A stretch of DNA of 64,000 nucleotides, taken from NCBI RefSeq assembly GCF_003428695.1, contig NZ_QURH01000180.1:1-64000 (forward strand), read 5' to 3'. Under the pieces are notes generated by a model. The model was given only the letters and a program-made list of their open reading frames with translations, was not told the DNA's origin and did not search any database. This document shows, piece by piece, positions 17,242 through 45,682 of this stretch. The stretch is from Actinomadura logoneensis (GTDB lineage: Bacteria > Actinomycetota > Actinomycetes > Streptosporangiales > Streptosporangiaceae). Position 1 is the first letter of the stretch. The number at the start of each line of letters is the position of its first letter. A program made the translations under genes and the position numbers.

Positions 17242-17268
17242 GGGGATCTCCTTTTGATCAGAGGCGGG

Positions 17269-18309: not shown

Positions 18310-18379
18310 GACAGGCCTCTCCGAGGAATGCCGCGGCGGGAACGACTCCGTCTGCGACGCCGGAATCCGGCGACCGGGT

Positions 18380-19861: not shown

Positions 19862-19874
19862 GAGGAGGGTCTCC

Positions 19875-25760: not shown

Positions 25761-25835
25761 CTGCTGCCGCTTCGCCGATGTGATGAGGCTCACTCGGAGG
25801 ATGTGGCATCCACGGGGGCGCGTCGAAAGGTGAGC

Positions 25836-29117: not shown

Positions 29118-30106
29118 TGGATCTGGCCATCGTCGGATTCGGTACCGCGGGTGAGGCGCGGCTCAGCGCCTACGCCACCATCGAGGACGCGCGCGTCGCC
29201 TGCGTCGTGGACCCTTCGCCGGACCGGCGAGCGCGTGCCGCGGCACACGGTCTCGACGGATTCGCGGATCTGGGCTCCATGCTGGCGACGACCACGGTGG
29301 ACGCGATCGACGTCTGCGCGCCACCGGCCTTCCATGCCGAACTCGTCACCGCCGGGCTGACCGCCGGGTGCCACGTGATCTGCGAGAAGCCCGTGGCGTT
29401 CGAGGCGGCACAGGCGGCCGACCTCGTCGCGCGGTCACGGCGGACGGGCCGCCTGCTGTACCCGGCGCACAACTACGGTTTCTCACCCATGATGCGGATG
29501 TTCGTCGAGGCGGTGGCGGAACCGATCGGCGGGCCCATGACCGCCTCGTTCACGATCCGACGTCCGACCCATGCCCGCGGAGTGTCGTCCTGGAGGCCGG
29601 ACTGGCGGCGCGATCCCGCCATGGCGTGCGGCGGCATCCTCCTGGACCACGGCACCCACTGCATCTACATGGCGACCCGGCTTTTCGGCGCCCTGCCCAC
29701 CAAGGTGTCCTGCACGACGATTCTGAACGATCAGGGCTTGGACCACGCGGCCGAGGCCACGTTGCGTTTCCCGAACGGATCCTGCGAGATCGCGCTGAGC
29801 TGGATCAGCGACGAGCGTTCCAACCTGTACGAGCTGAGCGGACCGGCGGGTTCCGTCTCCCTGCACGACGGTCAGGCGCTCATCACGGGACCGAACGGCT
29901 CCGAGGTGCGTGAACTCATCTCGCCCACCGGCAGCGGCACGCACGAGGAATGGTTCGCCGACATGTTCGCCGACTTCGCCTACCTGGTCGACCGCCCCCA
30001 GGAGTGGGGCAGACCGCTGGACGAGACGCTGGGGACCGCGCAGATCATCGAAGCGGCCTACCGCTCCGCCGCCCGGAACGGGACAGCGGTCTCCGTCGAC
30101 GGCTGA
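29117..30106 (+). CDS. Gfo/Idh/MocA-family NAD(P)-dependent oxidoreductase
   Basis: The 329-aa product has an N-terminal Rossmann fold (LAIVGFGTAGEARLSAY) and the catalytic-region EKP motif (E90-K91-P92 in HVICEKPVAF). GGILLDHGTHCIYMATRLFG corresponds to the substrate-binding Asp/His motif of sugar and inositol dehydrogenases. The ATG shares one base with the stop of the aminotransferase (TGATG); GTG 29114 is an alternative. The natural pairing is oxidation of a hydroxyl to a ketone that the aminotransferase then converts, as StrI-type and inositol dehydrogenases do. Confidence 0.91.
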   Translation: MDLAIVGFGTAGEARLSAYATIEDARVACVVDPSPDRRARAAAHGLDGFADLGSMLATTTVDAIDVCAPPAFHAELVTAGLTAGCHVICEKPVAFEAAQAADLVARSRRTGRLLYPAHNYGFSPMMRMFVEAVAEPIGGPMTASFTIRRPTHARGVSSWRPDWRRDPAMACGGILLDHGTHCIYMATRLFGALPTKVSCTTILNDQGLDHAAEATLRFPNGSCEIALSWISDERSNLYELSGPAGSVSLHDGQALITGPNGSEVRELISPTGSGTHEEWFADMFADFAYLVDRPQEWGRPLDETLGTAQIIEAAYRSAARNGTAVSVDG

Positions 30107-31248: not shown

Positions 31249-33009
31249 ATGAACGAGCACAGCACCCTTGTCGAACTCATGTGCGCCAGAGCGGCCGAGC
31301 ACGGCGACCGGACGGCTCTGGTCTTCAGCGCGGATCCCTTCCGTCCGGAGCGGGACGAGATCCTCACCTACCAGGGGCTCGACCAGGCCGCCCGGCGGGT
31401 GGCCGCGCTGCTCCAGGCCCGGTTCGCCGCCGGCGCCCGCGTCCTGGTGCTCCACCCCACCGGGCCGGCGTTCGCGGAGAGCTTCCTCGGCTGCGTTTAT
31501 GCGGGCATGGTGCCCGTGGCCGCTCCGACGCCCCATGACAACCGCCGCCTGACGGACCGGGTGGCGGCGATCGCGCGGGACGCGGACGCGGTCGCGGCCC
31601 TGGTCGATGCCTCTGACCTGGAGACGCTCACGGCCTGGGCCAAGGAGCGAGACCTCCCCGAGATCACCCTTCTTGCCCCCGCCTCCGAGGTGCTCCCGCC
31701 GGCCGACGCCTGGAAGCGGCCGCCGGCCGACCCTGGCGCCCTGGTCTTCCTCCAGTACACCTCCGGGTCGACCAGCGACCCCAAGGGCGTCATGGTCGAC
31801 CACGCCAACCTCCTGGCCAACGCGCGGCTGCTCTCGTTGGTGCTCGACGTCGACTCCACGACCGTCACCGGCGGCTGGCTGCCGATGTACCACGACTTCG
31901 GACTGATCGGGCTGCTGCTGAGCCCGCTGATCATGGGCGCGCACACCGTCCTGATGCCGACGATGGCCTTCCTCAAACGCCCCCACGCCTGGCTGACCCT
32001 CATCGACCGGTACGACATCGACTTCTCGCCCGCGCCCAACTTCGCCTTCGAGTTCGTCACCCGGCGCGTCACCGACGCGGAGATCGCCGAACTCGACCTG
32101 TCCCGCTGGCGGCTCGCGGTGAACGGTGCGGAGCCGGTCCGCGCCGCGACACTGGAGGAGTTCGCCCGGCGGTTCGCGCCGGCCGGTCTGCCTCCGACGG
32201 CCCCGACACCCGGGTACGGCATGGCCGAGACGACGCTGGTGGTGTGCGGCAACCGGTCCGGCCATCCGCCCGTGGTCACCTCGGTGGACCGGGCCGCGTA
32301 CGAACGGGGCGAGCTGGTGCCCGCGGCCGACGGCGCGAAGGCGCACCGGCTGGTGAGCTGCGGCCCCGCCGAGGTGATCGACATCCTCGTGGTCGAACCC
32401 CTGTCCCGCCGCCCCCTGCCCGACGGCCGGGTAGGGGAGATCTGGGTGCGCGGCCCGAACATCGCGCGGGGCTACTGGAACCGTCCCGAGGAGACCGCCC
32501 GGGTCTTCGCCGCCGCCACGGCGGACGGCGACTCCGGCTACCTGCGCACCGGCGACCTCGGGGTCCTGTGGAAGGGCGAACTCTACGTCACGGGTCGCCT
32601 CAAGGAGGTCATCATCGTCCGGGGCGGAAATCTCTACCCCCAGGACCTGGAGGCGGTGACCCACACCGCGCACCCCTCCCTGGAGCGCGGTGTCGGCGCC
32701 GCCTTCGCCGTTTCGGCCCCCGACGAGGGAGTGGTGATCGTCCGGGAGTGCCGCGAGCGGGATCCCGGTGGTCTTGCCGATGTCGCAGGGGCCGTCCGCG
32801 ACCGGTTGAGCCGCGAGTACGGAGTCAACGCCCACGGTGTCGTCCTCGTGCGCCCGGGCGGGGTGGCCCGGACCACGAGCGGGAAGATCCAGCGCCGCCT
32901 CGTCCGCCGCCAGTTCCTGACGGGCGGGTTGGACTGCGTCTACGCGGACCTCAGCCCGGCCCTTCGCGCCGCTCTCCCCGCCGCGAGGACCGGGGAGACG
33001 GCACGGTGA
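31249..33009 (+). CDS. Fatty acyl-AMP ligase (FAAL)
   Basis: The 586-aa adenylating enzyme has the P-loop YTSGSTSDPKGVMVDHANL (from residue 170), LPMYHDFGLIGLL, PGYGMAETTLVV and YLRTGDLG, then RLKEVIIVRGGNLYPQDLE. The MYHDFGLIG wording and the mode of the C-terminal domain are those of FAALs, which activate fatty acids and pass them to an ACP, not to CoA. It begins the operon whose third and ninth genes are ACPs. ATG 31249 follows GGAGGCTGGCGGCGC. The acyl chain length cannot be read from the sequence. Confidence 0.92.
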   Translation: MNEHSTLVELMCARAAEHGDRTALVFSADPFRPERDEILTYQGLDQAARRVAALLQARFAAGARVLVLHPTGPAFAESFLGCVYAGMVPVAAPTPHDNRRLTDRVAAIARDADAVAALVDASDLETLTAWAKERDLPEITLLAPASEVLPPADAWKRPPADPGALVFLQYTSGSTSDPKGVMVDHANLLANARLLSLVLDVDSTTVTGGWLPMYHDFGLIGLLLSPLIMGAHTVLMPTMAFLKRPHAWLTLIDRYDIDFSPAPNFAFEFVTRRVTDAEIAELDLSRWRLAVNGAEPVRAATLEEFARRFAPAGLPPTAPTPGYGMAETTLVVCGNRSGHPPVVTSVDRAAYERGELVPAADGAKAHRLVSCGPAEVIDILVVEPLSRRPLPDGRVGEIWVRGPNIARGYWNRPEETARVFAAATADGDSGYLRTGDLGVLWKGELYVTGRLKEVIIVRGGNLYPQDLEAVTHTAHPSLERGVGAAFAVSAPDEGVVIVRECRERDPGGLADVAGAVRDRLSREYGVNAHGVVLVRPGGVARTTSGKIQRRLVRRQFLTGGLDCVYADLSPALRAALPAARTGETAR

Positions 33010-34823
33010 CGTCCTCCGCTCGGACCTCGGCGTCCGCCCTCTCCCCGGCGTCCGTCCCGTCCACGGGACCGGCGAGGCCCGATGCCTCCGGCGCGGGCGT
33101 GGTGACGGCCACGGCCTCGAAACCCGTTCTCAGCGGTGGCACGGTCGATCTGGAGGCATTCGAGCAGGCGCTCGGTGACCCCTTCGATCCGAGCGCGCCG
33201 CTGTCGTTCGCCCGCAGCGCCGAGTCGGACCGGCGGGAGCAGTTCCCCGCCGACATGTGCCGGCTGCTCGATCGGCTGGGAATGCCGAGCCTCTACGTTC
33301 CGGTCGAGCACGGCGGCGCGCTCGCACGGTACGACGAGTTGACGGCGGCCGTCCGGTCGGTCGCACGCCGCGACCTGACCCTGGCGGTCGGACATGCCAA
33401 GACCTTCCTCGGCGGCGTCTGTGTGTGGCTCGCCGGGAGACCCGAGCAGGCTCGCGCGCTCGGCGCGGACATCGTCGCCGGCGTGCCCGTCGCATGGGGG
33501 CTGACCGAGCACGGTCACGGCAGTGACCTGCTCGCGGGCACGATGCAGGCGCGGCGCGACGGGGACGGCTACCGCGTCCGAGGTGAGAAATGGCCGATCA
33601 ACAACGCCACCCGGGGTGACCTGATCTGCCTGCTGGTCCGGACCCGGCCCGAGGGCGGACCACGCGGATTCAGCCTGCTGCTGGTGGACAAGCGGCGACT
33701 TCCCCACGACCGGTACCGGCACTTGCCGAAGGTGCCCACCCACGGCATCCGGGGAGCCGACATCAGCGGCCTGGCGATGGACGACTGTCCCGTTCCGGCC
33801 GGCGCGCTGGTCGGGACGGAGGGCGGAGGGTTGGAGACGGTGCTCAAGGCCCTCCAACTCACCCGGACGGTGTGCACGGCGCTCTCGTTGGGGGCGGCCG
33901 ACCAGGCGCTCCGGATCACGGTGGAGCATGCCGCGCGGCGCGGTCTCTACGGCCGCACCATGGTGGACCTGCCGCACGTCCGGCGGGCGCTCGGCCGAGC
34001 CCACGCCGCGTTGTTCACGGCCGAGGTCGTCAGCGTGTTCGCCGCACGCGCCGTGCACACCATGCCGGAGGAGCTGAGCGTGATCTCCGCGGTGGCCAAG
34101 GCGTACGTTCCGTCCCGCGTCGACGAGCTGATCATGACGTGCGAGGAACTGCTGGGAGTCCGGGGGTTCCTCGCCGACTACCACGAGCACGGCGCTTTCC
34201 AGAAACTCCATCGCGACCACCGGGTGGTCGGCGTCTTCGACGGCAGCACCTTCGTCAACCGGCACTCCCTGATCAGCCAGTTCACGCTGCTCGCGCGGGG
34301 CCACGCACGCATCACGGCGAACCCGGCCGGGGTGGAGGGGGCCGCCGACCTCACGGCTGCACTACCCACCCCGCGGATGCACCGGTTGAGCCTGACGGCG
34401 CGCGGCGGTTGCGGCCTCACCCAGGGCCTGGCCGGTGCCGCTGCCGACCTGCGCGGCCTGACGGCCGACGGGCGGGCACCCGCACGACTCGCTGATCTCG
34501 CCGACGAATTGAACGGCCACTGTGAGCGCCTTCATGAGGAACTGGCCCTGTGTCCGCCCTCGTCCCAGTTCGCCCCGCCGGAGGCGTTCACGCTCGCCCG
34601 CCGGTTCGAGCTGTGCTTCGCCGGCGCCGCTGCGCTCCGGGTCTGGCTGCACAACGCCGCGGCCGGTCATGACGGGCTCTGGCTGGAGGCGTGCCTCGTC
34701 CACGTCCTGCAGTCCCTGCGTCCTGCCCGGACGGCGGCCGACGAGGCGGTCTTCGACCGGCTCTTCGACGCGTTGCGAACCGGTGCCCCCGTCGCACCGC
34801 CCACCACGGGAGGAGGACTGTGA
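33006..34823 (+). CDS. Acyl-CoA/acyl-ACP dehydrogenase homologue, large type
   Basis: The 605-aa product has ACAD core motifs: WGLTEHGHGSDLLAGTMQA (FAD-adjacent), EKWPINNATRGDLICLL and TRTVCTALSLGAADQAL. The catalytic base region, YEGT in medium-chain ACADs, reads VFDGSTFVN with Asp412, so an acidic base is conserved. A C-terminal extension (about residues 430-605) is predicted helical. The GTG start overlaps the FAAL stop by 4 nt. The next gene is a paralogue without the acidic base, suggesting a heteromeric enzyme. Probable role: alpha,beta-dehydrogenation of the FAAL-loaded acyl-ACP. Confidence 0.88.
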   Translation: MTSSARTSASALSPASVPSTGPARPDASGAGVVTATASKPVLSGGTVDLEAFEQALGDPFDPSAPLSFARSAESDRREQFPADMCRLLDRLGMPSLYVPVEHGGALARYDELTAAVRSVARRDLTLAVGHAKTFLGGVCVWLAGRPEQARALGADIVAGVPVAWGLTEHGHGSDLLAGTMQARRDGDGYRVRGEKWPINNATRGDLICLLVRTRPEGGPRGFSLLLVDKRRLPHDRYRHLPKVPTHGIRGADISGLAMDDCPVPAGALVGTEGGGLETVLKALQLTRTVCTALSLGAADQALRITVEHAARRGLYGRTMVDLPHVRRALGRAHAALFTAEVVSVFAARAVHTMPEELSVISAVAKAYVPSRVDELIMTCEELLGVRGFLADYHEHGAFQKLHRDHRVVGVFDGSTFVNRHSLISQFTLLARGHARITANPAGVEGAADLTAALPTPRMHRLSLTARGGCGLTQGLAGAAADLRGLTADGRAPARLADLADELNGHCERLHEELALCPPSSQFAPPEAFTLARRFELCFAGAAALRVWLHNAAAGHDGLWLEACLVHVLQSLRPARTAADEAVFDRLFDALRTGAPVAPPTTGGGL

Positions 34824-36496
34824 CCGCCACGGAGCTGGCACGCCGCCTCGGCGACCCGTGGGACACCGCCAATCCCGCCGGGCACACCGCTGTGCTGGCC
34901 GCCGACGAGCGAGGGGAGCCGTTCGGCGCCGGGGAGCAGATCCTTGACGCCATCGGGCTGAACGCCGAGTTCGTCCCGGCCGACCTCGGCGGAAGGCTGG
35001 CCCGCCTTGACGATCTGATCCGAGTGATGCGGCAGGTGTTCCGCCGTGACCCCGCGCTCGGTCTGGGGTACGGGGCGAGCAGCCTGATCGCCGCCGTGAA
35101 CGTCTGGACCGCCGGGGACGGACGCCAGCGGCGCCGTGCCGCCGACCTGCTGCTCGGAGGCGGCCGGATCGCGGCGGGCTACCACGAGCTCGCCCATGGC
35201 AACGACTTCGCCGGAAGCGCCTTGTCCGCGTACGCCGGTCCGGATGGACGGCGCCGCCTCGACGGGCGCAAGGAAGTGATCGCCAATGCCGCGCGCGCCG
35301 AGGCCCTGGTGCTCTTCGCGCGCACGTCCGCCTCGCCCGGAAGCCGCAGTCACTCGCAGCTCCTGGTGGAGCGGGCCGACCTGCCCGCGGCCGGGTGTCG
35401 CGACCTCCCGCGCTTCCTCACGTCGGGGATGCGCGGGGTGCTCCTCGGCGGCCTGGCCTTCCGGGACTGCCCCGTCCCGGCCGATGCCGTCCTCGGCGAG
35501 CCGGGCCGCGGGATCGAGACGGCCCTGCGGTCGTTCCAGATCACCCGTACCGCGCTGCCCGCGATGGCCGTCGGCGTCCTCGAGGCCGGTCTGGACGCCA
35601 CCGCCCGTTTCACCGACGCGCGCGTGCTGTACGGGCGGCCTCTGGGCGACATGCCGCTCATCCGTTCCGTCCTCGCCGACGCGTACGCCGACCTGCTGAT
35701 CTGCGACTGCCTGGGACTGGTGGCGGCGCGTTCGGCGCACCTCGTCCCCGACCAGATGAGCCTTTACGCCTCTGCGGTCAAGTACTTCGTCGCGACACTG
35801 CTGACCGACGCCATGTACGAGCTGTCCCGGGTGCTGGGCGCGCAGTTCTACATCCGCGACGGTGAGTACGGCATCTTCCAGAAGCTTCTGCGGGACCTTC
35901 CCCCGGCGGGTTTCGGACACGCCGCGCGGGCGGCCTGCCTGGGGACGGTGCTCCCGCAGCTGCCCCGTCTGGCGCGCAGGGCATGGCGGGCGGGTGACGT
36001 CCCGCCCGTCGAGACGTACCGGCTCGGCGGGTCGCTGCCACCACTGTCATTCGACCGGCTCACTGTCACCTCCGGGGGGCGCGACGGCCACAGTGCGGCG
36101 CTCACCCTGGCGCTCGACGCTCCGGACGTGCCCGCCGAGGTGCGTCGGCTCCTGCACATCGTCGCAGTCGAGTTCGACGCCTTGGTCCGCGAGTGCGCCG
36201 CCTTGCCTCCCGGCGACCTGAGCGTGGACGCCCGACCCGAAGCCCTCGACCTGCCGGCGCGGTACGCGGCGGTGCTGGCCGCGACCGCCTGCGTGAACGT
36301 CTGGCTGCACAACAGGGACCGGGGTGGGGAGTTCCTCGCCGATCCGCGGTGGGTCGTGGCTGCGCTGCGCCGCATCGTCATACGGCTGAGGAGGGACCCC
36401 GGGCCCCGGTCCCGCGACCAGGACCGCGTGCTGGCGGCGGAGGCCCTCGCCCGGCACCACCGCAACAGCGGCTTCGGCCTGTCGGACGAACGATGA
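34820..36496 (+). CDS. Acyl-CoA dehydrogenase homologue without the catalytic acid
   Basis: The 558-aa product is collinear with the preceding dehydrogenase. AGYHELAHGNDFAGSALSAY matches its TEHGHGSD segment, and EYGIFQKLLRD matches AFQKLHRD. At the catalytic position the preceding VFDGST aligns with GFGHAAR, so Asp/Glu is replaced by His367. FAD contacts look partly altered as well. Heterotetrameric ACADs with one catalytically incomplete subunit are known in mycobacterial FadE pairs; the same arrangement is inferred here. GTG 34820 overlaps the previous stop by 4 nt (GTGA), with GGAGGA upstream. Confidence 0.85.
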   Translation: MTATELARRLGDPWDTANPAGHTAVLAADERGEPFGAGEQILDAIGLNAEFVPADLGGRLARLDDLIRVMRQVFRRDPALGLGYGASSLIAAVNVWTAGDGRQRRRAADLLLGGGRIAAGYHELAHGNDFAGSALSAYAGPDGRRRLDGRKEVIANAARAEALVLFARTSASPGSRSHSQLLVERADLPAAGCRDLPRFLTSGMRGVLLGGLAFRDCPVPADAVLGEPGRGIETALRSFQITRTALPAMAVGVLEAGLDATARFTDARVLYGRPLGDMPLIRSVLADAYADLLICDCLGLVAARSAHLVPDQMSLYASAVKYFVATLLTDAMYELSRVLGAQFYIRDGEYGIFQKLLRDLPPAGFGHAARAACLGTVLPQLPRLARRAWRAGDVPPVETYRLGGSLPPLSFDRLTVTSGGRDGHSAALTLALDAPDVPAEVRRLLHIVAVEFDALVRECAALPPGDLSVDARPEALDLPARYAAVLAATACVNVWLHNRDRGGEFLADPRWVVAALRRIVIRLRRDPGPRSRDQDRVLAAEALARHHRNSGFGLSDER

Positions 36497-36552: not shown

Positions 36553-36840
36553 ATGAACGGTTCGGAATCTGATCCGCTGGAGCCGGGACTGGGGCATTGG
36601 TTGCGCGAGCGCGTCGCCCACTACGCGCAGCGCGAGCCCGCTGAGATCGACCCGTCGGCCAATCTGACCAGCTACGGCCTTGACTCCGTCTACGCGCTGA
36701 GCCTCTGCGGCGATATCGAGGACCGTCTCGGACTCGTCCTCGAGCCCACCGTGGCGTGGGACCATCCGACGATCGAGGCTCTGGCCGCGCACGTCGAGGG
36801 CATGCTGACCGACGCCCGCCGACCGCAGGACGCCGGATGA
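36553..36840 (+). CDS. Acyl carrier protein 1
   Basis: The 95-aa product has the phosphopantetheine attachment Ser45 in the classic YGLDSVYALSL motif, followed by a four-helix ACP pattern ending in WDHPTIEALAAHV. ATG 36553 is preceded by AAGGAGAGTGTG; an ATG at 36493 overlapping the dehydrogenase stop is in frame but would add a Gly/Pro-rich leader. It is probably loaded by the FAAL and acted on by the dehydrogenases and the KAS III that follows (overlap ATGA). Activation is expected from the Sfp-type transferase at 44960. Confidence 0.92.
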   Translation: MNGSESDPLEPGLGHWLRERVAHYAQREPAEIDPSANLTSYGLDSVYALSLCGDIEDRLGLVLEPTVAWDHPTIEALAAHVEGMLTDARRPQDAG

Positions 36841-37769
36841 CGTCCCTGGAGGACGTGGCAGCGTACCTGCCGTCCGAACGGGTCCCCGTGAGCGACATGA
36901 CCGAGGAGCTGGGGCTCGGCCCCGACGAGGCGAAGGTCTTCCAGCGGTTCTACGGGCTGTCGGAAGTCCGCCGGGAACCCGGGGGCACCCTCACCGATCT
37001 GCTGCTGGCGGCCGCCGGGAAACTCACCACCCTGCGCGGACGGGAGCACCATGTCCGGTACGTGGTGCAGGCACGGACCATGCCGGTCGTCGTCCCGCAC
37101 CCCGTCAACCCCGTCCACGAGGTGCGGGACGCGCTCGGACTGCGCCACGCGCAGGCGTTCGCGCTGACCCACCACGCGTGCGCGTCCGGGCTCCTCGCGG
37201 TCGATCTGTGCGGCAAGCTGCTGGGCGCTGACGGCCACCCGGACGGCCTGGCCCTGGTCCTCACCGGAGAGAAGACGTTCACGCGTGCCGCGCGGACGGT
37301 CCCGGGCACCGCCATCAACGGCGAGGGGGCCGCCGCCGTCCTGGTGGGGATCCGCGGCGATCGGGACCGGATGCTCGGATACGCCACACGAACGATCGGC
37401 CGCTTCTACGAGTGCCTGTCGCTCGCCGACGCGCTGTTCACCGAGTTCCGGCAGATCTACGCCGACTCGCTGGCCGAGGTGATGCTGGCCGCCGTCGAGG
37501 CGGCGGGGCTGGCTCTCGACGACATCGCCCTGGTGCTCCCGCACAACGTCAACCGGGTGTCCTGGGTCCGGCTGGCCAAGGGCCTCGGGCTTCCGCTCGA
37601 CCGGGTGTTCCTGGACAACATCCCGGTCACCGGTCACTGCTTCTGCGCCGATCCCTTCATCAACTACCAGACGGCCGTGGAACTGGGCCGGCTCCACTCC
37701 GGAGACCGCTACCTGCTGGCCACGGTCGGGCTCGGGGCGACCTTCTCGGCGATGGTCTTCGAGCACTGA
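36837..37769 (+). CDS. 3-Oxoacyl-ACP synthase III (KAS III)-like enzyme
   Basis: The 310-aa thiolase-fold protein has nucleophile Cys115 in THHACASGLLAV and His236 in VLPHNVNRVSW (HxxN). The third active-site residue, normally Asn, is His267 in VTGHCFCADP. A Cys-His-His set occurs in some KAS III-like acyltransferases and C-acylating enzymes of secondary metabolism, so it may condense or transfer acyl groups without usual decarboxylation (inference). ATG 36837 overlaps the ACP stop by 4 nt. A Cys-less homologue is encoded at 40842 in the same operon. Confidence 0.88.
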   Translation: MTSLEDVAAYLPSERVPVSDMTEELGLGPDEAKVFQRFYGLSEVRREPGGTLTDLLLAAAGKLTTLRGREHHVRYVVQARTMPVVVPHPVNPVHEVRDALGLRHAQAFALTHHACASGLLAVDLCGKLLGADGHPDGLALVLTGEKTFTRAARTVPGTAINGEGAAAVLVGIRGDRDRMLGYATRTIGRFYECLSLADALFTEFRQIYADSLAEVMLAAVEAAGLALDDIALVLPHNVNRVSWVRLAKGLGLPLDRVFLDNIPVTGHCFCADPFINYQTAVELGRLHSGDRYLLATVGLGATFSAMVFEH

Positions 37770-37778: not shown

Positions 37779-39200
37779 GTGGATTTCAACGAGCGGCTGA
37801 AGTCGGCTCTGACCGGCGAAACCACCACGAGTCTGGTCCTCCTCGGCAACTTCGAGGTGGAGGACCGGTGGGCGCGCGGAGAGGTCGGACTGCCGCGCCT
37901 CGCCTTCGGGTCCGACAACGTGATCGTCAACAGGATGGACGAGTTCGCCCTGCTGTTGGCGGCCAAGGGGGACCACGTCCTGCTGAAGGCCGACCCCGAC
38001 GCCGACTTCCTGGCCTACCTGGAAACGCTGGGCTTCGAGATGCCGGCCGTCCTCACGCCTTCCCGCCACGACCCCCGCAAGCTGGTCACCGAGGATGCGC
38101 TCGACGACCCCGGGTTGTGCGCCGAGCTGGGCGAGCTGGGCGCCCGGGGCGCCGTCCTCAGCCCCCACGGGGTGTCGGAACTGGAGGAGCAGCTGGCCGG
38201 AGCGGCCGGCCTCCCGCTCGCCGCGCCCTCCGCCGCCGTCTGCAAGGCCGTCAACAGCAAGATCTACAGTCGGCGACTGGCCGACGCTCTCGGCGTCCGC
38301 CAGGCGCGCGGCTGGACCTGTGACGACGTCGCCGAGATGGAGGAGGCGTTCGGCGCGGCGCGCACCCTGCTGGCCGCCGGGCGGCGCGTCGTCGTCAAGG
38401 ACGCTTTCGGCGTCTCCGGCAAGGGCATCGAACTCGTCGAGGCCGAACCCCGGCTGGACCGGTTGCTTCGCATGATCAGCAGAAACGTGCGGCGGGCGGG
38501 CGGCGACCGGCTCGGTGTCGTCGTGGAGGAGTGGGTCGACAAGCGCGCCGACCTGAACTACCAGTTCACCGTGGGCCGTGGCGGCAGCGTGCACTTCGAC
38601 TTCGTCAAGGAGGCATTGACAGAGTCAGGGGTGCACAAGGGCCACCGTATCCCCGCGCGGCTCGCCGAGCACCAGGTCGCCGAGCTGAAGGACGTCTCCC
38701 ACCGCCTCGGCGAGAAGCTGGCCGCGGACGGCTACTACGGAGTGGTGGGCGTCGACGCGATGGTCGATCCGGACGGCGGTCTCTATCCGGTGGTCGAGAT
38801 CAACGCCCGGAACAACATGTCGACCTACCAGGCCGCCATCCAGGAGGCGTTCCTGGAGGGGTGGGGAGGGAGGACGGCACTGGCCCGGCAGTACCCGCTG
38901 CGGCTCACCCGCCCGCTGCCGTTCGGCCGGTTGCGCGACCTGCTGACCGACCTGCTGTTCACCCACGCCTCCGGAACGGGACTGCTGGTCAACAATCACG
39001 CGACGGTCAACGCGGCGGCGCCGGAGGACGGCGCGGCAGCGGTCGGCGCGTCCTCCACCGCCGGGCCGGGCGAGTCGTTCGCCGGCCGCCTGTACGGCGT
39101 GGTCATCGCGTCCTCGGACGCGCAGCTGACCGCACTGGACGGCGAGATCACCCGCCGGCTGGCGGCTCTCCGAGAAGGGACCTCGTCCGATGCCGCGTGA
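37779..39200 (+). CDS. ATP-grasp ligase, BtrJ-like role proposed
   Basis: The 473-aa ATP-grasp protein has RVVVKDAFGVSGKGIELVEA (nucleotide-binding Lys and glycine loop), VVEEWVDKRADLNYQF and the metal-binding VVEINARNNMSTY. Such ligases activate a carboxylate as acyl phosphate. The order ATP-grasp, PLP decarboxylase, ACP copies BtrJ, BtrK and BtrI of butirosin biosynthesis, in which L-glutamate is loaded on an ACP and decarboxylated. The same role is inferred; the sequence alone does not fix the amino acid. GTG 37779 has GAGGAGAG upstream. The C-terminal about 120 residues are less typical and Ala-rich. Confidence 0.82.
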   Translation: MDFNERLKSALTGETTTSLVLLGNFEVEDRWARGEVGLPRLAFGSDNVIVNRMDEFALLLAAKGDHVLLKADPDADFLAYLETLGFEMPAVLTPSRHDPRKLVTEDALDDPGLCAELGELGARGAVLSPHGVSELEEQLAGAAGLPLAAPSAAVCKAVNSKIYSRRLADALGVRQARGWTCDDVAEMEEAFGAARTLLAAGRRVVVKDAFGVSGKGIELVEAEPRLDRLLRMISRNVRRAGGDRLGVVVEEWVDKRADLNYQFTVGRGGSVHFDFVKEALTESGVHKGHRIPARLAEHQVAELKDVSHRLGEKLAADGYYGVVGVDAMVDPDGGLYPVVEINARNNMSTYQAAIQEAFLEGWGGRTALARQYPLRLTRPLPFGRLRDLLTDLLFTHASGTGLLVNNHATVNAAAPEDGAAAVGASSTAGPGESFAGRLYGVVIASSDAQLTALDGEITRRLAALREGTSSDAA

Positions 39201-40500
39201 GTACCAGGTGCAGGGCGTACCGGTGTCCGACCTCGCCCGCAGATACGGCACACCCTTCTTCGTCTACGACGGGCAGGTCCTGCACGACCGTTTCCACGGT
39301 CTGCGCCGCCGGCTGCACTCGGCGGTCGAGATCTTCTACTCGCTGAAGGCCAACCCCAACGTCTCGGTCTGCGCCCTCCTGCGGTCGTTCGGCGCCCGCG
39401 CGGAGATCTCCTCGCTGGTGGAGCTGCGGACGGCGCGTCGTGCCGGCGTCGCGCCGGAGGACATCATCTTCCTCGGGCCGGGAAAGAGCCGCCAGGAACT
39501 CGCGGCCTGCCTGGACGAGGGCGTCTTCGCGATCGTCTGTGAGTCCTTCCCCGAACTGGCGCTGGTGGACGAGCTGGCCCGCGACCGCGGCGTGCGGGCC
39601 CCGGTCGCGCTGCGGATCAACCCGAGCTTCGCGGTCAAACGGTCCGGGCTGGCGATGGGAGGGAAGCCCCGGCAGTTCGGCATCGACGAAGAGCAGGTGT
39701 TCGCCGAGGCCGGCCTCGCCGGGCGGTTCCCCGGCGTGGAGGTCATCGGCGTGCACGTCTACATGGGCACCCGCATCCTCGAAGAGGACGTGGTGGTGGA
39801 GAACACCACCCGCATTCTGGAACTGGCCGAAAGGGTCGCCGCCCACCTGGCCGTGCCCCTGCGGATGGTCGACGTCGGAGGCGGGCTGGGCGTCGACTAC
39901 TTCTCCGGCGAGACCGGCCTGGATCCTGCCGTGCTGGCCGGGAAGCTCGACCCCGTGATCGCCGGATTCACCGCCCGGCACCCCGGCACACGACTGATCA
40001 TGGAGGTGGGGCGGTACCTCACGGCCGAGTCCGGCACCTACGTGGTCGCCGTCCGCTATGTGAAGACCTCCATGGGCGAGCGGTTCGCGGTCGCCGACGG
40101 CGGCACCAACCACCACATGGCCGCCGTGGGCATCGGCTCCTTCGTGAAGCGCAACTTCCCGATGGCGGTGCTCAACCGGCTCGACGAGCCCGCCACCGAG
40201 GACTGGAACATAACCGGACCGCTGTGCACGCCCAACGACACCCTCGGTAAGAAAGTGCCGCTCCCGCCAGTGCGCGCCGGTGACCTGATCGGCGTACTGC
40301 GGTCCGGGGCGTACGGCCCCACCGCCTCACCCGTCCTCTTCCTCAGCCACGGCTATCCCGCCGAGGTGCTCGTCCACGAGGGCAGGCCGCATCTGATCCG
40401 CGAACGAGACCTCCCCGAAGACCTCATGGCCCGGCAGCGCCTCTACGACCCGGCCGAGCCGGACCCCGCGGCGCGGAACGCGACCGACATCGTCCCGTGA
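39190..40500 (+). CDS. PLP-dependent decarboxylase (DAP/ornithine decarboxylase fold), BtrK-like role proposed
   Basis: The 436-aa fold-type III enzyme has the PLP lysine K53 in FYSLKANPN, a DVGGGLGVDY loop, IMEVGRYLTAESGTYV, the interface Cys in GPLCTPNDTLGKKV and GAYGPTASPVLF near the end. LysA members decarboxylate D-stereocentres; relatives in BGCs (BtrK, VinO) decarboxylate ACP-bound amino acids. Flanked by an ATP-grasp ligase (11-nt overlap) and an ACP, decarboxylation of an aminoacyl-ACP is the likely job, giving an omega-amino acyl group such as 4-aminobutyryl-ACP (inference). Confidence 0.9.
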   Translation: MPREYQVQGVPVSDLARRYGTPFFVYDGQVLHDRFHGLRRRLHSAVEIFYSLKANPNVSVCALLRSFGARAEISSLVELRTARRAGVAPEDIIFLGPGKSRQELAACLDEGVFAIVCESFPELALVDELARDRGVRAPVALRINPSFAVKRSGLAMGGKPRQFGIDEEQVFAEAGLAGRFPGVEVIGVHVYMGTRILEEDVVVENTTRILELAERVAAHLAVPLRMVDVGGGLGVDYFSGETGLDPAVLAGKLDPVIAGFTARHPGTRLIMEVGRYLTAESGTYVVAVRYVKTSMGERFAVADGGTNHHMAAVGIGSFVKRNFPMAVLNRLDEPATEDWNITGPLCTPNDTLGKKVPLPPVRAGDLIGVLRSGAYGPTASPVLFLSHGYPAEVLVHEGRPHLIRERDLPEDLMARQRLYDPAEPDPAARNATDIVP

Positions 40501-40529
40501 AGCCCCTGCACACGAAAGGTGACCTTCTG

Positions 40530-40835
40530 ATGGAGAACACGACCCCGGGTAACGCCGCCGACCTGCACGGCAGGGTGGTCGGCACGATCGTGGCCGCGCT
40601 CGCCGAGGCGACCCGACTCGACCCCCGCACGATCGGTGAGGACAGCACTCTCTTCGACGAGCTGGGGCTCGACTCCACCACGGTGCTCGGGCTGCTCATG
40701 ACGATCGAGGAGGAGCTCGGGATCGAGTTCGACACCGACTCCCTCGAACAGCACCACTTCGAGTCGGTGGGCACCCTCGCCGCGTTCGTGGAGACGCAGG
40801 TGGTCGAGCAGGTGCCCGATCTGGCCGAAGCGTAG
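40530..40835 (+). CDS. Acyl carrier protein 2
   Basis: The 101-aa ACP has Ser49 in DELGLDSTTVLGLL, with surrounding acidic helices II and III (IEEELGIEFDTDSLEQ). ATG 40530 has AAAGGTGA 9 nt upstream; a GTG at 40497 overlapping the decarboxylase stop is also in frame. Its place right after the ATP-grasp and decarboxylase genes makes it the probable carrier for the amino acid-derived unit, while ACP 1 probably carries the fatty acyl unit. Confidence 0.93.
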   Translation: MENTTPGNAADLHGRVVGTIVAALAEATRLDPRTIGEDSTLFDELGLDSTTVLGLLMTIEEELGIEFDTDSLEQHHFESVGTLAAFVETQVVEQVPDLAEA

Positions 40836-40841: not shown

Positions 40842-41723
40842 ATGTACCTCGCCACGGCCCCTGGCCCGGGGGCCCTCGATCCGGCCGCTCGGACGCCCCT
40901 CCGCCTGTCACGTCTCCTGAGCCTGACGTTCGGGGCGGGGCAGCCGTTCCACCCCGACCCGATGGAACCGAGTCTGGAACGGATGCAGACGGACCTGCTC
41001 CGTCCCTATCGGAGGGAACTGCGCGCGGAGGTGCTCGCCCAGGGGCGACGCAACACCTTCACCGAGATGAGCCAGGCACTGCTGGCCGCGCTCGGGCCGC
41101 TCAAGGACCCGCTCGACATGATCCTGGTGGTCAACAGCGTGCCGGACGCCGACCCGCGCCGGTCGCCGTCCTGTCACCTCACCGACGTCGCGCCCGGCGA
41201 CGCACTGGCCTTCAACCTCTCCGACCAGGGGGCCGCCGGACCCTTCACAGCGCTGCGGCTGGTCACCGAGTACGCCAAGGTCAGCGGCTTCCGTCATGCC
41301 CTGGTCGTCGTCCTGGACCAGCGGACCTTTCCCTACGACGTGACCGGGGCCGACGGCGTCCCCGAGCACGACTGCGCGGTCGGCCTGCTTCTCGGCCCCA
41401 CCGGGCCCGCCGGAGAGCCGGCCGTCCACCAGCGGGCGGACGTCGCCCCTGAGGAGGTCCCCGCCCACCTCAACGCCGAGGGCGAGACCTCTGCCGTACT
41501 GGTGGCAGGGGAGGGCATCGAGCCGGACTGGATCGCGCCGGGACGGTTCACCGAAGTGATCTGGGCGCCCGAGGGGCGTCCCTGTACCGGTCCATGGTCC
41601 GCGCTCGCCGCCTCGCTGCCGCGCCTCGCCGCGCGCGGCCCCGACCACCTCGTCGTCGCGGACTACGACCGCGCCCAGCGGTACCTGTGTCTGAGCAGCA
41701 TGGACTTGGAGGAGGCCCTGTGA
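40842..41723 (+). CDS. KAS III-like protein without catalytic Cys
   Basis: The 293-aa product follows the KAS III N-terminal pattern: PLDMILVVNSVPDADP, then LAFNLSDQGAAGPFTALRLV and HALVVVLDQ. In KAS III the middle segment holds the nucleophile (AACSG); here it is SDQGAAG with Gln129 and Gly130, so no Cys is available. C-terminal His/Asn catalytic motifs are not evident. It may be a structural partner for the active KAS III at 36837, in the manner of chain-length-factor subunits, or a binding protein. It starts 6 nt after ACP 2. Assignment rests on motif similarity only. Confidence 0.6.
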   Translation: MYLATAPGPGALDPAARTPLRLSRLLSLTFGAGQPFHPDPMEPSLERMQTDLLRPYRRELRAEVLAQGRRNTFTEMSQALLAALGPLKDPLDMILVVNSVPDADPRRSPSCHLTDVAPGDALAFNLSDQGAAGPFTALRLVTEYAKVSGFRHALVVVLDQRTFPYDVTGADGVPEHDCAVGLLLGPTGPAGEPAVHQRADVAPEEVPAHLNAEGETSAVLVAGEGIEPDWIAPGRFTEVIWAPEGRPCTGPWSALAASLPRLAARGPDHLVVADYDRAQRYLCLSSMDLEEAL

Positions 41724-42427
41724 CGAGTCTGGAGACGCCCGACACCGAAACGGTCACAGGCACATGGAGGAGACTGCGGGGGCTCGCCCGTGGAGCGGGG
41801 GTGGTTCCCGCTCTGACCGCGCTGCGGACGGCCGTCTGCCCGGAAGCCCTGCCGTGCGGACCGGCGGGGCACGCGCTGGTCCCGGAGGACATCGCCGAGA
41901 CCTTCGACCACGGCTGGGCCGACGGCAGCGGGGCTCCCCGCGCCGCGGACCGGGAGGACAGGCTGACTGAAATCGCCGTATCCGGCGGTGTCCTGGTCGC
42001 GCTCCGGAGGAGGGACGAGGCGCCGGTGGACGTTCACCGGGCACCGGTACGGGCGTGGACGCTGGGCCTGGCCTGGGTGCGCCTCGGCCTCTCGGAACAG
42101 ATGCTGGACACCTGCATGACCTACCTCAGGGGCCGCGTCACCGGTGCCGGCACACTGCTCAACCAGCAGATGGTCAAGGGATCGCTCGCGGAGGTGGCCA
42201 TCGAGCATCTCGAGATCGAGACCATGATGGACGGCGCCCTCCCCGGTGACCTCGACATCGCGGCGACGGTCCACCTGCACGCCCAGATCACCCGTGCCGA
42301 CCGGATGCTCCTCCGGCTGCTCGGCGCCTACGGGTTCCTGGCCGATGGTCCGGGCCAGGTCGCCTGGGTGTCGGAGTTGCTCGCGGATGTCTATGTCGGT
42401 CCACCGGCGGAAGGCGGCCCACGATGA
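41720..42427 (+). CDS. Protein resembling the C-terminal half of an acyl-CoA dehydrogenase
   Basis: The 235-aa product is mostly alpha-helical. MVKGSLAEVAIEHLEIETMM and ADRMLLRLLGAYGFLADG resemble the C-terminal helical bundle of ACADs, but no FAD-binding TEP/GSD motif, N-terminal domain or EGT base is present. GTG 41720 overlaps the previous stop by 4 nt and the stop overlaps the next gene by 4 nt. The adjacent full-length dehydrogenase suggests a two-subunit enzyme. The function is not proven. Confidence 0.6.
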   Translation: MTSLETPDTETVTGTWRRLRGLARGAGVVPALTALRTAVCPEALPCGPAGHALVPEDIAETFDHGWADGSGAPRAADREDRLTEIAVSGGVLVALRRRDEAPVDVHRAPVRAWTLGLAWVRLGLSEQMLDTCMTYLRGRVTGAGTLLNQQMVKGSLAEVAIEHLEIETMMDGALPGDLDIAATVHLHAQITRADRMLLRLLGAYGFLADGPGQVAWVSELLADVYVGPPAEGGPR

Positions 42428-43581
42428 TCGAGCTGGACGACCGGACGAGGGCGATCCAGCGACGCGCCCGCGAGTGGGCCCGGGAGCTCAAGCCACTGGC
42501 CTTGGAGCTGGACGGGGACCCGGACGCGATCTACCGCCACCTCGACGTGGCGATCGTGTCGTACCTGACCCGGATGCCGGTCCCCCCGCGACACAACCCC
42601 GACCCGGTGGTCATCGACGGGCACAGGTTCTATGGCACCGGAACGCTGGAACGAGTCGTCTTCGCCGAGGAGGTGGCGGTCGGTGACGCCGGGATGCTGC
42701 TGGCCGCGCCGGGCCCGGTGATGTCGGGTGTCCTGGTCGACTCACTGGGCGACGAACGGCAGAAGGAGTGGTTCTACAGCCGTATCCTCCAGCGCCCCAC
42801 CTGGACGTTCTTCGCGTTGACCGAGCCCGCGCGCGGCTCTGACGCCGGGGCGATGGAGACCACCCTCGCGCCGGACGGTGACGGTTATGTGTTGAACGGC
42901 CGTAAGAGGTACATCGGCAACGCCGCCCGCGCCGACATCGGTGTCGTCTTCGCCCGGACCCGGCCCGGTCCGCTCGGGGTCACCGCGGTCCTCGCCGAAA
43001 CGTCCGACCCCGGGTTCACCGCCGAGCCCCTCGAAACCATCGGACTCCGTGGTCTGCGCATCACGAACGTGACGCTGGACAGAGTGCGGATCTCTGCGGG
43101 AAACGTCCTCGGCCAGCATCTGCGGCCCACGCAGCGGGGCATGTGGAGTGCCGTCCAAGGGCTGAACCGGCTCCGCCCCGGGGTCGCCGCGTTCGGGCTG
43201 GGCATCGCCCGTTCGGCGTATGAGTACGTCCGGGAGAACCGGCCCGGCCTCCCGCTTCGGGACCGGGAACGGCTGGACGACCTCGGCCGCCGCATCACCG
43301 GCGTCCGCCAGCTGATCTGGCGGGCCGCCCTCGCGGTCGACGCCGCCCGTCCGAGCGCGGGGTACGAGGCCTCCGCCGCGAAGGCGAAGGCGTCCCGACT
43401 CGCCGAGGACGCGACCATGGAGGCGCTCGGCTTCTTCGGAGCCGGCGCCCGGCTGGAGCATCCGCTTCTGGACAAGCTCGCCAGGGACGCCCGCGCCGTC
43501 GAGTTCATGGAAGGCACGGGCAACATCCAGAAGCTCAACCTCTTCACCGGCCTGCTCCAGGGCCGTCTGCACCGTGGCTGA
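42424..43581 (+). CDS. Acyl-CoA dehydrogenase family protein, catalytic type
   Basis: The 385-aa product is of standard ACAD length. It has FFALTEPARGSDAGAMETTL (FAD and substrate region), LNGRKRYIGNAARADIGVVF, GLRGLRITNVTLDRVRI and the C-terminal FMEGTGNIQKLN with catalytic Glu363. It is thus a complete flavin dehydrogenase and the probable active partner of the preceding helical protein. The substrate is probably the ACP-bound acyl or aminoacyl chain. ATG 42424 overlaps the previous stop by 4 nt (ATGA). Confidence 0.9.
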   Translation: MIELDDRTRAIQRRAREWARELKPLALELDGDPDAIYRHLDVAIVSYLTRMPVPPRHNPDPVVIDGHRFYGTGTLERVVFAEEVAVGDAGMLLAAPGPVMSGVLVDSLGDERQKEWFYSRILQRPTWTFFALTEPARGSDAGAMETTLAPDGDGYVLNGRKRYIGNAARADIGVVFARTRPGPLGVTAVLAETSDPGFTAEPLETIGLRGLRITNVTLDRVRISAGNVLGQHLRPTQRGMWSAVQGLNRLRPGVAAFGLGIARSAYEYVRENRPGLPLRDRERLDDLGRRITGVRQLIWRAALAVDAARPSAGYEASAAKAKASRLAEDATMEALGFFGAGARLEHPLLDKLARDARAVEFMEGTGNIQKLNLFTGLLQGRLHRG

Positions 43582-44944
43582 CGCGGGTCCCGCCCTGGTG
43601 GGCGGTGAGGAGGCGGGCCGTGAGGAACCGGGCCGCGGGAGAAGGCGCCGCGAGATCCGCAGGCTCGCCGGACCCATGATGCTGGCCGGAACGGCCGGGG
43701 TGCTGGTACCGACTGTGGTTTTGGCCCTGGTCTCGCGGTTGGGTGCCGACGAACTGACGATCCGAGCCCTCTACACTCCGCTGGCCTTCCTCTTCCTCGC
43801 GCTCCAGATGGCCTTCGACCTCAGCAACCAGGCCGGCGCCGCGTTCCATTTCGGGCGGGGGACCGATCGGTACGTGCCTTCCCACGCGGTCAGCCTGCTG
43901 GGGATCTGGGTCGGCCTCGCGGTGGCCATCTGCGTTCTGGTCGCGGCGGCGGCCCCCGTCCTGACCGGCGTCCTGCATGTGGAGCCGGCGGTGGGGCCGC
44001 GATTCGAGGCGTTCCTGCGCTGGATGGCGATCGCCCACCTCGCCCTGCCCGGGTCGGTTCTGGCCGCGTCCTGCCTGCGCGGAACGGGAAGGCCCCGGGC
44101 GGCGGCGTCGATCACTGTGACCAACGCCGTGGTCGAGATCGGCGCCGTCGCAGCCCTCGGCCCCGGCAGTGGTCTCGGGATCATGGCGGTGCCGGTGGCG
44201 ACGGCCCTCGCCGGGCTGTCCGGGACCGTTCTCGGCCTGGTGCACCTGCGCCGGGCGGGCCTGTGGGGACGGCCGCTCGGGTGGCGGCCGGACGCCATCG
44301 GGCGCCTGGTGTCGGTGGGACTGCCGGTCGGCGCCTCCTACCTGGTCCTCTTCGCGATGAACCTGGCCCTGTTGTGGGTACTCGGCCCGTTCGGCCGAGA
44401 TGTCCGCGATGGATTCGCGGTCGGTGCCGTCGTGCAGAGCCTGGTCGTCATCCCGGCGATCGCGCTCGGATCGGCTACGGCGATCGTCATGAACCAGCAG
44501 CGCGGCGCCGGGAAGCTGCCGTGGCTGGAGGACACGCTGAGGGCCGGGCTCCAGGTGGCCTTCGTGATGTACGCGGTCCTCGCCCCGGCCGTCTGGCTCG
44601 GGAGGGAGGTCCTCGGCGTGCTGCTGGCAGGGGACACCCGGGTGGCTGAGGAAGGCGTCCGCTTCCTCGGCGTCGTCGCCCCCACCTACCTGGTCTTCGG
44701 CATGGTCCTGGTCGCCGTCACGGCCATCGAGCAGATCGGAGGAGGCGCCCTGGTGCTCGGCATGAACGCCGCCTACACGGTCGGGATCGTCGGACTGGGC
44801 GGCCTGCTGGCCCGGTGGCTCGACGCTCCCGGCGCCCTGTACACCACGATCGCGCTCTTCAATCTCGCGGGAATCGGGGGAGTGGCACTGACCCTCCGGT
44901 TCGTCCGCGGTCTGAGCAGGGGGCGCCCGTGCCCGGCCGAGTGA
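43574..44944 (+). CDS. MATE-family efflux transporter
   Basis: The 456-aa protein has about 12 hydrophobic helices with an internal duplication typical of MATE transporters. Helix 1 follows a basic lead (REIRRLAGPMMLAGTAG). VVQSLVVIPAIALGSATAIV begins the second-half pattern with a conserved small-residue helix and MNQQRGAGK loop. It is the probable exporter of the BGC product, driven by H+ or Na+. GTG 43574 overlaps the dehydrogenase stop by 8 nt. Confidence 0.87.
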   Translation: MADAGPALVGGEEAGREEPGRGRRRREIRRLAGPMMLAGTAGVLVPTVVLALVSRLGADELTIRALYTPLAFLFLALQMAFDLSNQAGAAFHFGRGTDRYVPSHAVSLLGIWVGLAVAICVLVAAAAPVLTGVLHVEPAVGPRFEAFLRWMAIAHLALPGSVLAASCLRGTGRPRAAASITVTNAVVEIGAVAALGPGSGLGIMAVPVATALAGLSGTVLGLVHLRRAGLWGRPLGWRPDAIGRLVSVGLPVGASYLVLFAMNLALLWVLGPFGRDVRDGFAVGAVVQSLVVIPAIALGSATAIVMNQQRGAGKLPWLEDTLRAGLQVAFVMYAVLAPAVWLGREVLGVLLAGDTRVAEEGVRFLGVVAPTYLVFGMVLVAVTAIEQIGGGALVLGMNAAYTVGIVGLGGLLARWLDAPGALYTTIALFNLAGIGGVALTLRFVRGLSRGRPCPAE

Positions 44945-44959: not shown

Positions 44960-45682
44960 GTGGTTGAAGTCCTGCCGGCGAGCGGCGCTGTGGAGGTCTG
45001 GAGAATCCCCCTGGACCTGCCGTCAGAGGCCGTGGTGCGACTACGGGCGACCCTGGACCGGGAGGAGACGGAAAGGCTCCATCGCAGCCGCTGCGCCCGT
45101 GAACGGCGTCGGCTCATCGTCGCCCGCGGCACGCTACGGCAGATTCTCGCGGCCTACCTTGGGGAGGCCCCGGGAGAGCTGCGCTGGACGCGGGGTCCCT
45201 ACGGGAAGCCCGGGATCGCCCGGGTGGACACCGAGCTCCGGTTCAACCTCTCGCACGCGGGGGAGGTGGCTCTGGTCGCGGTGACCTCCCGTGACGAAGT
45301 CGGGGTCGACGTGGACCTACCGCGGCCCCGAGTGCCGGTTCGGCCGTTCTCCGCCCGCTACTTCCCCCCTGCTGAGGCGGCTTTGGTCGACCGAGCGGAC
45401 CCGTCCCACGCCCGGACCGCCTTCCTGCGGCTCTGGACCCGCAAGGAGGCGGTGGTCAAGGCGGCGGGAGCACGCGTGACGCAGGGGCTGCGCCTTCCGG
45501 TGGCCACGGGCGGCCCCGCGGGGGCGTCCGGGGCCGTAGTGGTGCGTGATCCCACCGGTGTGATCGCGGGGACATGGACGGTGCAGGATCTGCCGATGCC
45601 GGGCGAGTACGTGGCCGCGGTGGCCGTCGAGGGACGACGGGCGCCACGGGTCGTCATCAGGCGCGTCGACCGCTGGTGGTGA
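44960..45682 (+). CDS. Sfp-type 4'-phosphopantetheinyl transferase
   Basis: The 240-aa product has the two Sfp signatures: VGVDVDLPRP (metal-binding Asp pair) and FLRLWTRKEAVVKAAG (Trp, Lys-Glu, Lys). FNLSHAGEVALVAV is the preceding substrate strand. It transfers phosphopantetheine from CoA to the serine of carrier proteins, here ACP 1 and ACP 2. It is the last gene of the operon; GTG 44960 has GAGGAGG upstream. The BGC probably ends here, because the next 300 bp carry tandem repeats and then an unrelated methyltransferase. Confidence 0.95.
   Translation: MVEVLPASGAVEVWRIPLDLPSEAVVRLRATLDREETERLHRSRCARERRRLIVARGTLRQILAAYLGEAPGELRWTRGPYGKPGIARVDTELRFNLSHAGEVALVAVTSRDEVGVDVDLPRPRVPVRPFSARYFPPAEAALVDRADPSHARTAFLRLWTRKEAVVKAAGARVTQGLRLPVATGGPAGASGAVVVRDPTGVIAGTWTVQDLPMPGEYVAAVAVEGRRAPRVVIRRVDRWW

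Follow-up and report, generated by a model that had tools for sequence, protein, structure and literature searches.

A seven-gene cassette of Actinomadura logoneensis that probably forms an N-acyl-dehydro-beta-alanyl thioester in a setting free of nonribosomal peptide synthetases

The stretch of the Actinomadura logoneensis genome analyzed here (assembly GCF_003428695.1, contig NZ_QURH01000180.1, positions 1 to 64,000 of the forward strand; 64,000 nucleotides, referred to below as the window) contains a seven-gene cassette built around an ATP-grasp ligase, a pyridoxal 5'-phosphate (PLP) decarboxylase and an acyl carrier protein (ACP), ACP2. The cassette probably makes an N-acyl-dehydro-beta-alanyl (N-acyl-3-aminoacryloyl) thioester on ACP2, in a setting free of nonribosomal peptide synthetases (NRPS). 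The other four genes encode two proteins of the ketoacyl-ACP synthase III (KASIII) fold and two of the acyl-CoA dehydrogenase (ACAD) fold. Identities, order, conservation, catalytic triads and folds of these genes can be read from the sequence:

36837-37769, plus strand: KS3, predicted KASIII-fold acyltransferase with Cys115/His267/Asp272 (Pfam ACP_syn_III_C, alignment)
37779-39200, plus strand: proposed ATP-grasp amino acid:ACP ligase (PreATP-grasp PF18604, 62 bits; ATP-grasp Pfam models; synteny)
39190-40500, plus strand: predicted PLP decarboxylase of an ACP-bound amino acid (BtrK match)
40530-40835, plus strand: ACP2, aminoacyl carrier with Ser49 (PP-binding, PF00550, 46.7 bits)
40842-41723, plus strand: KSx, degenerate KASIII-fold partner without the conserved Cys (AlphaFold2 pLDDT 91.9; best Foldseek match ChlB3)
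41720-42427, plus strand: SML, small, truncated ACAD-fold partner (AlphaFold2 pLDDT 92.3; Foldseek matches to ACADs)
42424-43581, plus strand: ACAD3, with catalytic Glu363 (Pfam, alignment)

The ATP-grasp/decarboxylase/ACP trio is confirmed as a real, overlapping and conserved arrangement. Its open reading frames are consecutive on the plus strand; the decarboxylase start (39190) overlaps the ATP-grasp stop (39200), and the first possible ACP2 start (GTG, 40497) overlaps the decarboxylase stop (40500), a better start being ATG 40530. The decarboxylase is composed of Orn_Arg_deC_N (Pfam, 138 bits) and the C-terminal sheet domain, and its top match in PDB is BtrK of butirosin biosynthesis (2j66/7ru7, 311 bits), followed by diaminopimelate decarboxylase 2p3e (179 bits). 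The preliminary description of positions 37779-40835 had listed the three genes as consecutive and overlapping or nearly so, with K53 in a LysA-fold decarboxylase, S49 in the ACP, and a fatty acyl-AMP ligase (FAAL) and a KAS III in combination with them. Open reading frame coordinates and Pfam bear out this arrangement, the LysA fold and both residues hold, and FAAL and KASIII are real by Pfam and NCBIfam profile matches.

To assess conservation, GTDB genomes were scanned with the ATP-grasp protein as query; the best 80 of 94 loci and a plasmid of S. decoyicus gave 81 loci (L numbers below denote the loci compared), and 73 of them entered the synteny count, as 8 of the 81 had too little flank. 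Because the ATP-grasp query biases the sample toward loci bearing this gene, the counts are not natural frequencies. A length filter before alignment removed 1 of 71 KS3, 6 of 65 KSx, 3 of 56 SML, 3 of 71 decarboxylase and 1 of 67 ACP copies. K53 is invariant in all 69 aligned decarboxylases (the window and 68 of 71 locus copies), and Ser49 in all 67 aligned ACPs (the window and 66 of 67 locus copies). The unbroken order KASIII, ATP-grasp, decarboxylase, ACP, KSx was found in 54 of the 73 loci, from many actinobacterial genera, so that the trio is no chance arrangement; after KSx, SML is also present in 48 of 73 loci and ACAD3 in 44. The S. decoyicus plasmid carries the same six genes. In even draws of genomes, ATP-grasp matches above 300 bits occurred in 21 of 297 genomes of the order, and KS3 matches with E <1e-40 in 10 of 394 genomes of the class. 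Nine of the 73 loci, all from Amycolatopsis, have the ATP-grasp gene without a decarboxylase inside the flank. These are no counter-example: a 69-70% identical decarboxylase lies 26-28 kb off on the same contig in five of five genomes checked for both genes, and on another contig in a sixth (L046).

Since a PLP decarboxylase of the BtrK kind is coupled here to an ACP and an ATP-grasp ligase, the trio likely acts by decarboxylating an amino acid bound to the carrier. The preliminary description had taken the trio for a copy of the butirosin genes that load glutamate and decarboxylate it to 4-aminobutyryl-ACP, and had pointed to vicenistatin as a further case. It was right in class and probably wrong in substrate and product: a BtrK-type decarboxylase does stand with an ACP and an ATP-grasp ligase, while the conversion of glutamate to 4-aminobutyryl does not suit the KASIII and ACAD partners. 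The pointer to vicenistatin was apt, as that logic has an aspartate-to-beta-alanyl branch with a better fit. Sequence identity of the window decarboxylase is 38.9% with BtrK, 40.7% with a Burkholderia cenocepacia enzyme, 46.7% with a roseobacterial ACAD fusion from Gemmobacter and 59.7% with an enzyme encoded next to ectoine-type genes on a Streptomyces plasmid; in a midpoint-rooted tree BtrK groups with Sinorhizobium and Burkholderia enzymes, apart from the window decarboxylase. A close kinship with butirosin is weakened by the tree and the identities, which do not decide between aspartate and glutamate. In a search of plasmids with BtrK as query, the butirosin cluster was not among the best 12 of 162 records.

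All 71 aligned copies of KS3 have Cys115, His267 and Asp272. This triad aligns with that of CerJ and corresponds to Cys113/His296/Asp301 of ChlB3, with a GHxxxxD pattern; the FabH-type Cys-His-Asn triad is absent, its Asn position being taken by His267, five residues ahead of Asp272. The Cys/His/Asp triad works in acyl transfer in ChlB3 and CerJ (PMC9573744) and is also borne by AfcL, the KASIII-like enzyme of AFC-BC11 biosynthesis (PMC12186527). On the basis of this triad, a Claisen-type KASIII was set aside for KS3. KSx matches no Pfam model, and where the nucleophile would lie the alignment shows no conserved cysteine; the top Foldseek match of its AlphaFold2 model is ChlB3, with TM-scores near 0.6. 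The SML model matches ACADs with TM-scores near 0.5, including chains of the Tcur3481-Tcur3483 complex. The alignments used for structure prediction had 43 and 37 rows, chosen from the filtered copies. ACAD3 looks active, Glu363 being conserved in 57 of 57 aligned copies. Perhaps KS3 pairs with KSx, and SML may likewise be the partner of ACAD3.

The dehydro-beta-alanine product is suggested by this set of partners, because an acyltransferase-type KASIII, a degenerate KASIII, a degenerate ACAD and an active-looking ACAD match the bolagladin, AFC-BC11, enamidonin and autucedine systems. The decarboxylase has its own ACP, the KASIII has Cys/His/Asp and the ACAD has the catalytic Glu, as expected of an acyl-dehydro-beta-alanine cassette. 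In the route proposed for bolagladin in Burkholderia gladioli (BolO/BolC/BolN/BolM/BolP/BolQ), Asp is loaded by its beta-carboxyl, BtrK-like BolN decarboxylates it, a KASIII N-acylates the product and the ACAD BolQ desaturates it; deletion of bolN abolished bolagladin, which free beta-alanine did not rescue, and deletion of bolQ led to dihydro-bolagladins (PMC7756342). The likeness to the window lies in the carrier-bound Asp, proposed here as well, the BtrK-like decarboxylase, two KASIII homologs and an ACAD, whereas BolO is a VinN-type adenylating enzyme where the window has ATP-grasp, and bolagladin proceeds to an NRPS. The AFC-BC11 cluster of the Burkholderia cepacia complex (PMC12186527) has no large NRPS, and it includes a FAAL, a carrier, a decarboxylase on carrier-bound Asp (AfcP decarboxylates AfcK-bound L-Asp in vitro), a Cys/His/Asp KASIII-like enzyme and an ACAD. 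It differs in the VinN-type AfcQ in place of ATP-grasp, in its iterative trimer, in its single carrier, and in having no condensation domain, while the window has a free-standing one.

Within 36-46 kb of the window no VinN-type adenylating enzyme of the BolO/AfcQ kind was found; the ATP-grasp gene occupies that place. A B. cenocepacia locus (L131, 8692-19947), not identified as afc, is compact and NRPS-free and contains an ACAD, an ACP, KASIII-type genes, an AMP-binding enzyme, a BtrK-type decarboxylase, an ACAD-like gene, a KSx homolog and a LuxR autoinducer-binding regulator, with no ATP-grasp match. A Gemmobacter plasmid (L133, 6953-9427) has a decarboxylase-ACAD fusion beside KASIII-type, KSx and SML homologs and AMP-binding enzymes, and ATP-grasp likewise has no match there; a Tritonibacter plasmid gene (L136, 8980-11418) is similar to the Gemmobacter one in size and layout, by annotation. 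As these B. cenocepacia and Gemmobacter loci have AMP-binding enzymes and no ATP-grasp match, ATP-grasp appears to replace the VinN-type enzyme in the actinobacterial cassette. A literature search on the pairing of ATP-grasp with KASIII gave nothing relevant, and one on homologs of BtrJ, BtrK and BtrI led mostly to unrelated work.

Several other loci were noted. A plasmid of Streptomyces sp. NBC_01208 (L132, 8983-13893) carries a 60% identical decarboxylase whose neighbors are EctA, ectoine synthase, an ACP and an AMP-binding enzyme; the annotation shows no KASIII or ACAD in the vicinity, and this is perhaps a different carrier-bound amino acid pathway. The S. decoyicus plasmid (NZ_CP108348; L029, 36963-39921) carries, one after another, genes for a TauD-type dioxygenase, an asparagine-synthase-like and an enoyl-CoA-hydratase-like protein, which together recall CarC/CarA/CarB of carbapenem biosynthesis. 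A streptoaminal/tetrahydroquinoline route was also considered and set aside; a literature search gave no link to it.

Upstream of the cassette lies a four-gene lipid block:

31249-33009, plus strand: FAAL (PF00501, 226 bits; NCBIfam FAAL models)
33006-34823, plus strand: ACAD1, acyl-CoA-dehydrogenase family (profile matches; 48-50% identity to FAAL-linked ACADs of NRPS lipopeptide loci)
34820-36496, plus strand: ACAD2, acyl-CoA-dehydrogenase family (profile and homolog matches)
36553-36840, plus strand: ACP1, fatty-acyl carrier (PF00550, 54 bits)

The same FAAL-ACAD-ACAD-ACP order was found in three plasmid NRPS loci and in RthH-RthI-RthJ-RthK of rotihibin biosynthesis (FAAL, two acyl-CoA dehydrogenases and ACP; PMC8552735). 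The rotihibin block feeds an NRPS, whereas that of the window would feed the dehydro-beta-alanine cassette. The site of the catalytic Glu of ACAD3 is occupied by Asp in ACAD1 (FDGST) and by a non-acidic residue in ACAD2 (GFGHAAR; window 33006-36496). ACAD1 and ACAD2 may work as a heteromer.

Relatives of the cassette that adjoin NRPS genes connect it with known lipopeptides. Among contiguous cassettes without the FAAL block, 24 of 47 have NRPS or the 2,3-diaminopropionate genes SbnA/SbnB within flanks of about 10 kb, versus none of seven FAAL-block loci (Fisher p 0.013; flanks are short). In S. rimosus, where SbnA/SbnB adjoin, the NRPS adenylation-domain codes read DIW..ADD with an E-like domain, DIW..ADD, Gly-like and aromatic. 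Olenamidonins and autucedines consist of D-2,3-diaminopropionate (Dpr), L-Dpr, Gly and L-Phe, with the acyl chain joined via dehydro-beta-alanine (PMC11204786); the S. rimosus module order matches this peptide and thus provides a product link to acyl-dehydro-beta-alanine. The full cassette is present in S. olivaceoviridis, along with SbnA and NRPS modules of Gly-like and aromatic type, and in Saccharothrix, along with SbnA/SbnB and an NRPS of four modules that include a Gly-like one. For the Streptomyces enamidonin/autucedine/olenamidonin group, a KASIII is the proposed acyl joiner, OleH/AutS being thought to ligate acyl-CoA to dehydro-beta-alanyl-ACP (PMC11204786). Unlike these systems, the window has no nearby NRPS or SbnA/SbnB and does have the FAAL-ACAD-ACAD-ACP block, a stand-alone condensation enzyme and sulfation-type genes.

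The substrate and the order of steps, which we infer from these relatives, are probably as follows. ATP-grasp would load L-aspartate via its beta-carboxyl onto ACP2, and the BtrK-type decarboxylase would strip the alpha-carboxyl to give beta-alanyl-ACP2. FAAL would load a fatty acid on ACP1, where ACAD1/ACAD2 would desaturate it, as proposed for rotihibin. KS3, perhaps with KSx, would hold the acyl group on Cys115 and pass it to the amine of beta-alanyl-ACP2, forming an amide and no new C-C bond. Finally, ACAD3, perhaps with SML, would oxidize N-acyl-beta-alanyl-ACP2 to the enamide.

Genes on both sides could supply the later steps:

16591-17241, minus strand: sulfotransferase (PF17784; 78% in A. 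xylanilytica), probable cluster member by conserved linkage
17269-18309, minus strand: type III polyketide synthase-like protein (PF02797, 72 bits; linkage)
18380-19960, minus strand: arylsulfotransferase (ASST; PF14269, 182 bits)
19875-21293, minus strand: stand-alone condensation-domain enzyme with no A or T domain and SHLAADF for HHxxxDG (PF00668, 68 bits; homologs also stand with the cassette in further loci free of NRPS)
21798-22892, minus strand: conserved protein without Pfam match (homologs in L030, L032, L041, L095 and L109)
23028-23909, plus strand: sulfotransferase (PF13469; Pfam)
25803-26552, plus strand: LuxR-type regulator (also near the L067, L079 and L048 cassettes)
26623-27456, plus strand: inositol-monophosphatase-family phosphatase (profile match)
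27573-29117, plus strand: class III aminotransferase (PF00202, 286 bits)
29114-30106, plus strand: Gfo/Idh/MocA dehydrogenase (59-60% identity in L032 and L041)
43574-44944, plus strand: predicted MATE exporter (PF01554, 74 bits)
44960-45682, plus strand: 4'-phosphopantetheinyl transferase (PF01648, 46 bits)

No NRPS was found on the 68-kb contig, whose PP-binding matches are ACP1 and ACP2 only, and the stand-alone enzyme at 19875-21293 is its sole condensation domain. Homologous stand-alone condensation proteins occur near the cassette in L030, L032, L041, L048, L056, L067 and L079. In A. xylanilytica, which has the same cluster with proteins about 72-91% identical, counterparts of 16591-23909 follow directly after the phosphopantetheinyl transferase, while the window has them on the other side; linkage conserved after such a rearrangement suggests that these genes belong to the cluster. 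An amine or alcohol could receive the acyl-enamide from the condensation enzyme, and the MATE protein could export the product. Our guess is that the acceptor could be an amino-sugar or aminocyclitol made by the aminotransferase, the dehydrogenase and the phosphatase, with sulfate possibly added through the sulfation-type genes. The grouping of a type III polyketide synthase, arylsulfotransferase and sulfotransferases (16591-19960 and 23028-23909) is like the two-step caprazamycin sulfation shuttle, where the type III polyketide synthase Cpz6 has the presulficidin role and sulfation includes an arylsulfotransferase step.

Several observations weigh against the proposed route. Aspartate and the enamide are taken from the products of related clusters, and the sequence does not separate Asp from Glu. 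The cassette was likened to the aut genes only by product description, and the DIW..ADD codes were assigned to diaminopropionate solely via the neighboring SbnA/SbnB. In S. rimosus (L035 with L115, L116 and L151), ACAD3 and SML are absent within 58 kb, so this strain may make the beta-alanine form or use another enzyme. N-acylation in AFC-BC11 is performed by FAAL, not by KASIII (PMC12186527). In the window, the condensation enzyme lacks the full HHxxxDG motif, and the only tie of the sulfation and amino-sugar genes to the cluster is conserved linkage, seen mainly in one relative.

Other explanations account for part of the same evidence. That the ligase loads glutamate and the decarboxylase yields 4-aminobutyryl-ACP2 as an omega-amino acyl unit, as in butirosin, agrees with BtrK as the closest solved structure and with the same three protein kinds as BtrJ/BtrK/BtrI. 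However, ACAD-linked proteobacterial enzymes are closer to the window decarboxylase than BtrK is, and no glutamyl-cyclotransferase or hydroxylase of butirosin type was recognized among the named cluster genes. To our knowledge the butirosin logic involves no KASIII, ACAD or FAAL, so the conserved KASIII acyltransferase and ACAD partners would have no role there, while they fit dehydro-beta-alanine lipopeptides; we regard this explanation as quite unlikely. Iteration, with ATP-grasp adding several Asp/beta-alanine units to give oligo-dehydro-beta-alanine before acylation and release, is unlikely too. ATP-grasp enzymes commonly form amide bonds, and the NRPS-free layout, the FAAL, the KASIII-type enzymes and the several ACADs are as in AFC-BC11, where AfcQ is iterative (PMC12186527). 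However, the same ATP-grasp family stands beside NRPSs of the kind that make single-dehydro-beta-alanine products, and the extra ACADs are explained by the separate ACP1 and the rotihibin-type ACAD1/ACAD2 block.

A Claisen condensation by KS3, with the aminoacyl unit starting or extending a short polyketide and a possible cyclization to an imine, is very improbable in spite of the KASIII fold with ACP_syn_III_C and the retained FabH-like PHN motif (His236 in 71 of 71 copies): the CerJ/ChlB3 GHxxxxD pattern replaces the FabH Asn, no ketoreductase was recognized in the core cassette, and the KASIII-type enzymes of AFC-BC11 and bolagladin are shown or proposed to perform release or N-acylation (PMC12186527, PMC7756342). 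Hardly credible is a housekeeping or free amino acid decarboxylase placed beside an ACP by chance. Its LysA fold and 283 bits to TIGR01048 point that way; however, this score is below the NCBIfam cut-off of 297.9, the two other decarboxylase-family members of the genome are only 29-33% identical to it, and the synteny is tight, so plain LysA was rejected. The exosortase-linked decarboxylase family TIGR03099 was also rejected on its score (373.7 bits, cut-off 478).

The acyl-dehydro-beta-alanine route thus remains the probable one. Its extension to a complete NRPS-free pathway in Actinomadura-like bacteria is more tentative: a sulfated enoyl-dehydro-beta-alanyl amide of a new lipid class is conceivable, made with ATP-grasp (possibly iterative) in place of the VinN-type enzyme and with KASIII and ACAD heteromers containing degenerate partners, and joined to an amino-sugar or aminocyclitol by the condensation enzyme. 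A literature search, mostly outside subscription journals, found no description of an NRPS-free actinobacterial version.

Dehydro-beta-alanine is a rare, photo-switchable backbone unit of antibacterial and antifungal lipopeptides. The route to it would be a portable cassette spread over many actinobacterial genera, with ATP-grasp instead of the adenylating enzyme found in Burkholderia. Whether a KASIII catalyzes amide formation becomes directly testable with the invariant Cys/His/Asp KASIII and its degenerate partner. If the proposed route is true, it predicts an undescribed lipid family and would offer a small, reconstitutable system for enamide formation.

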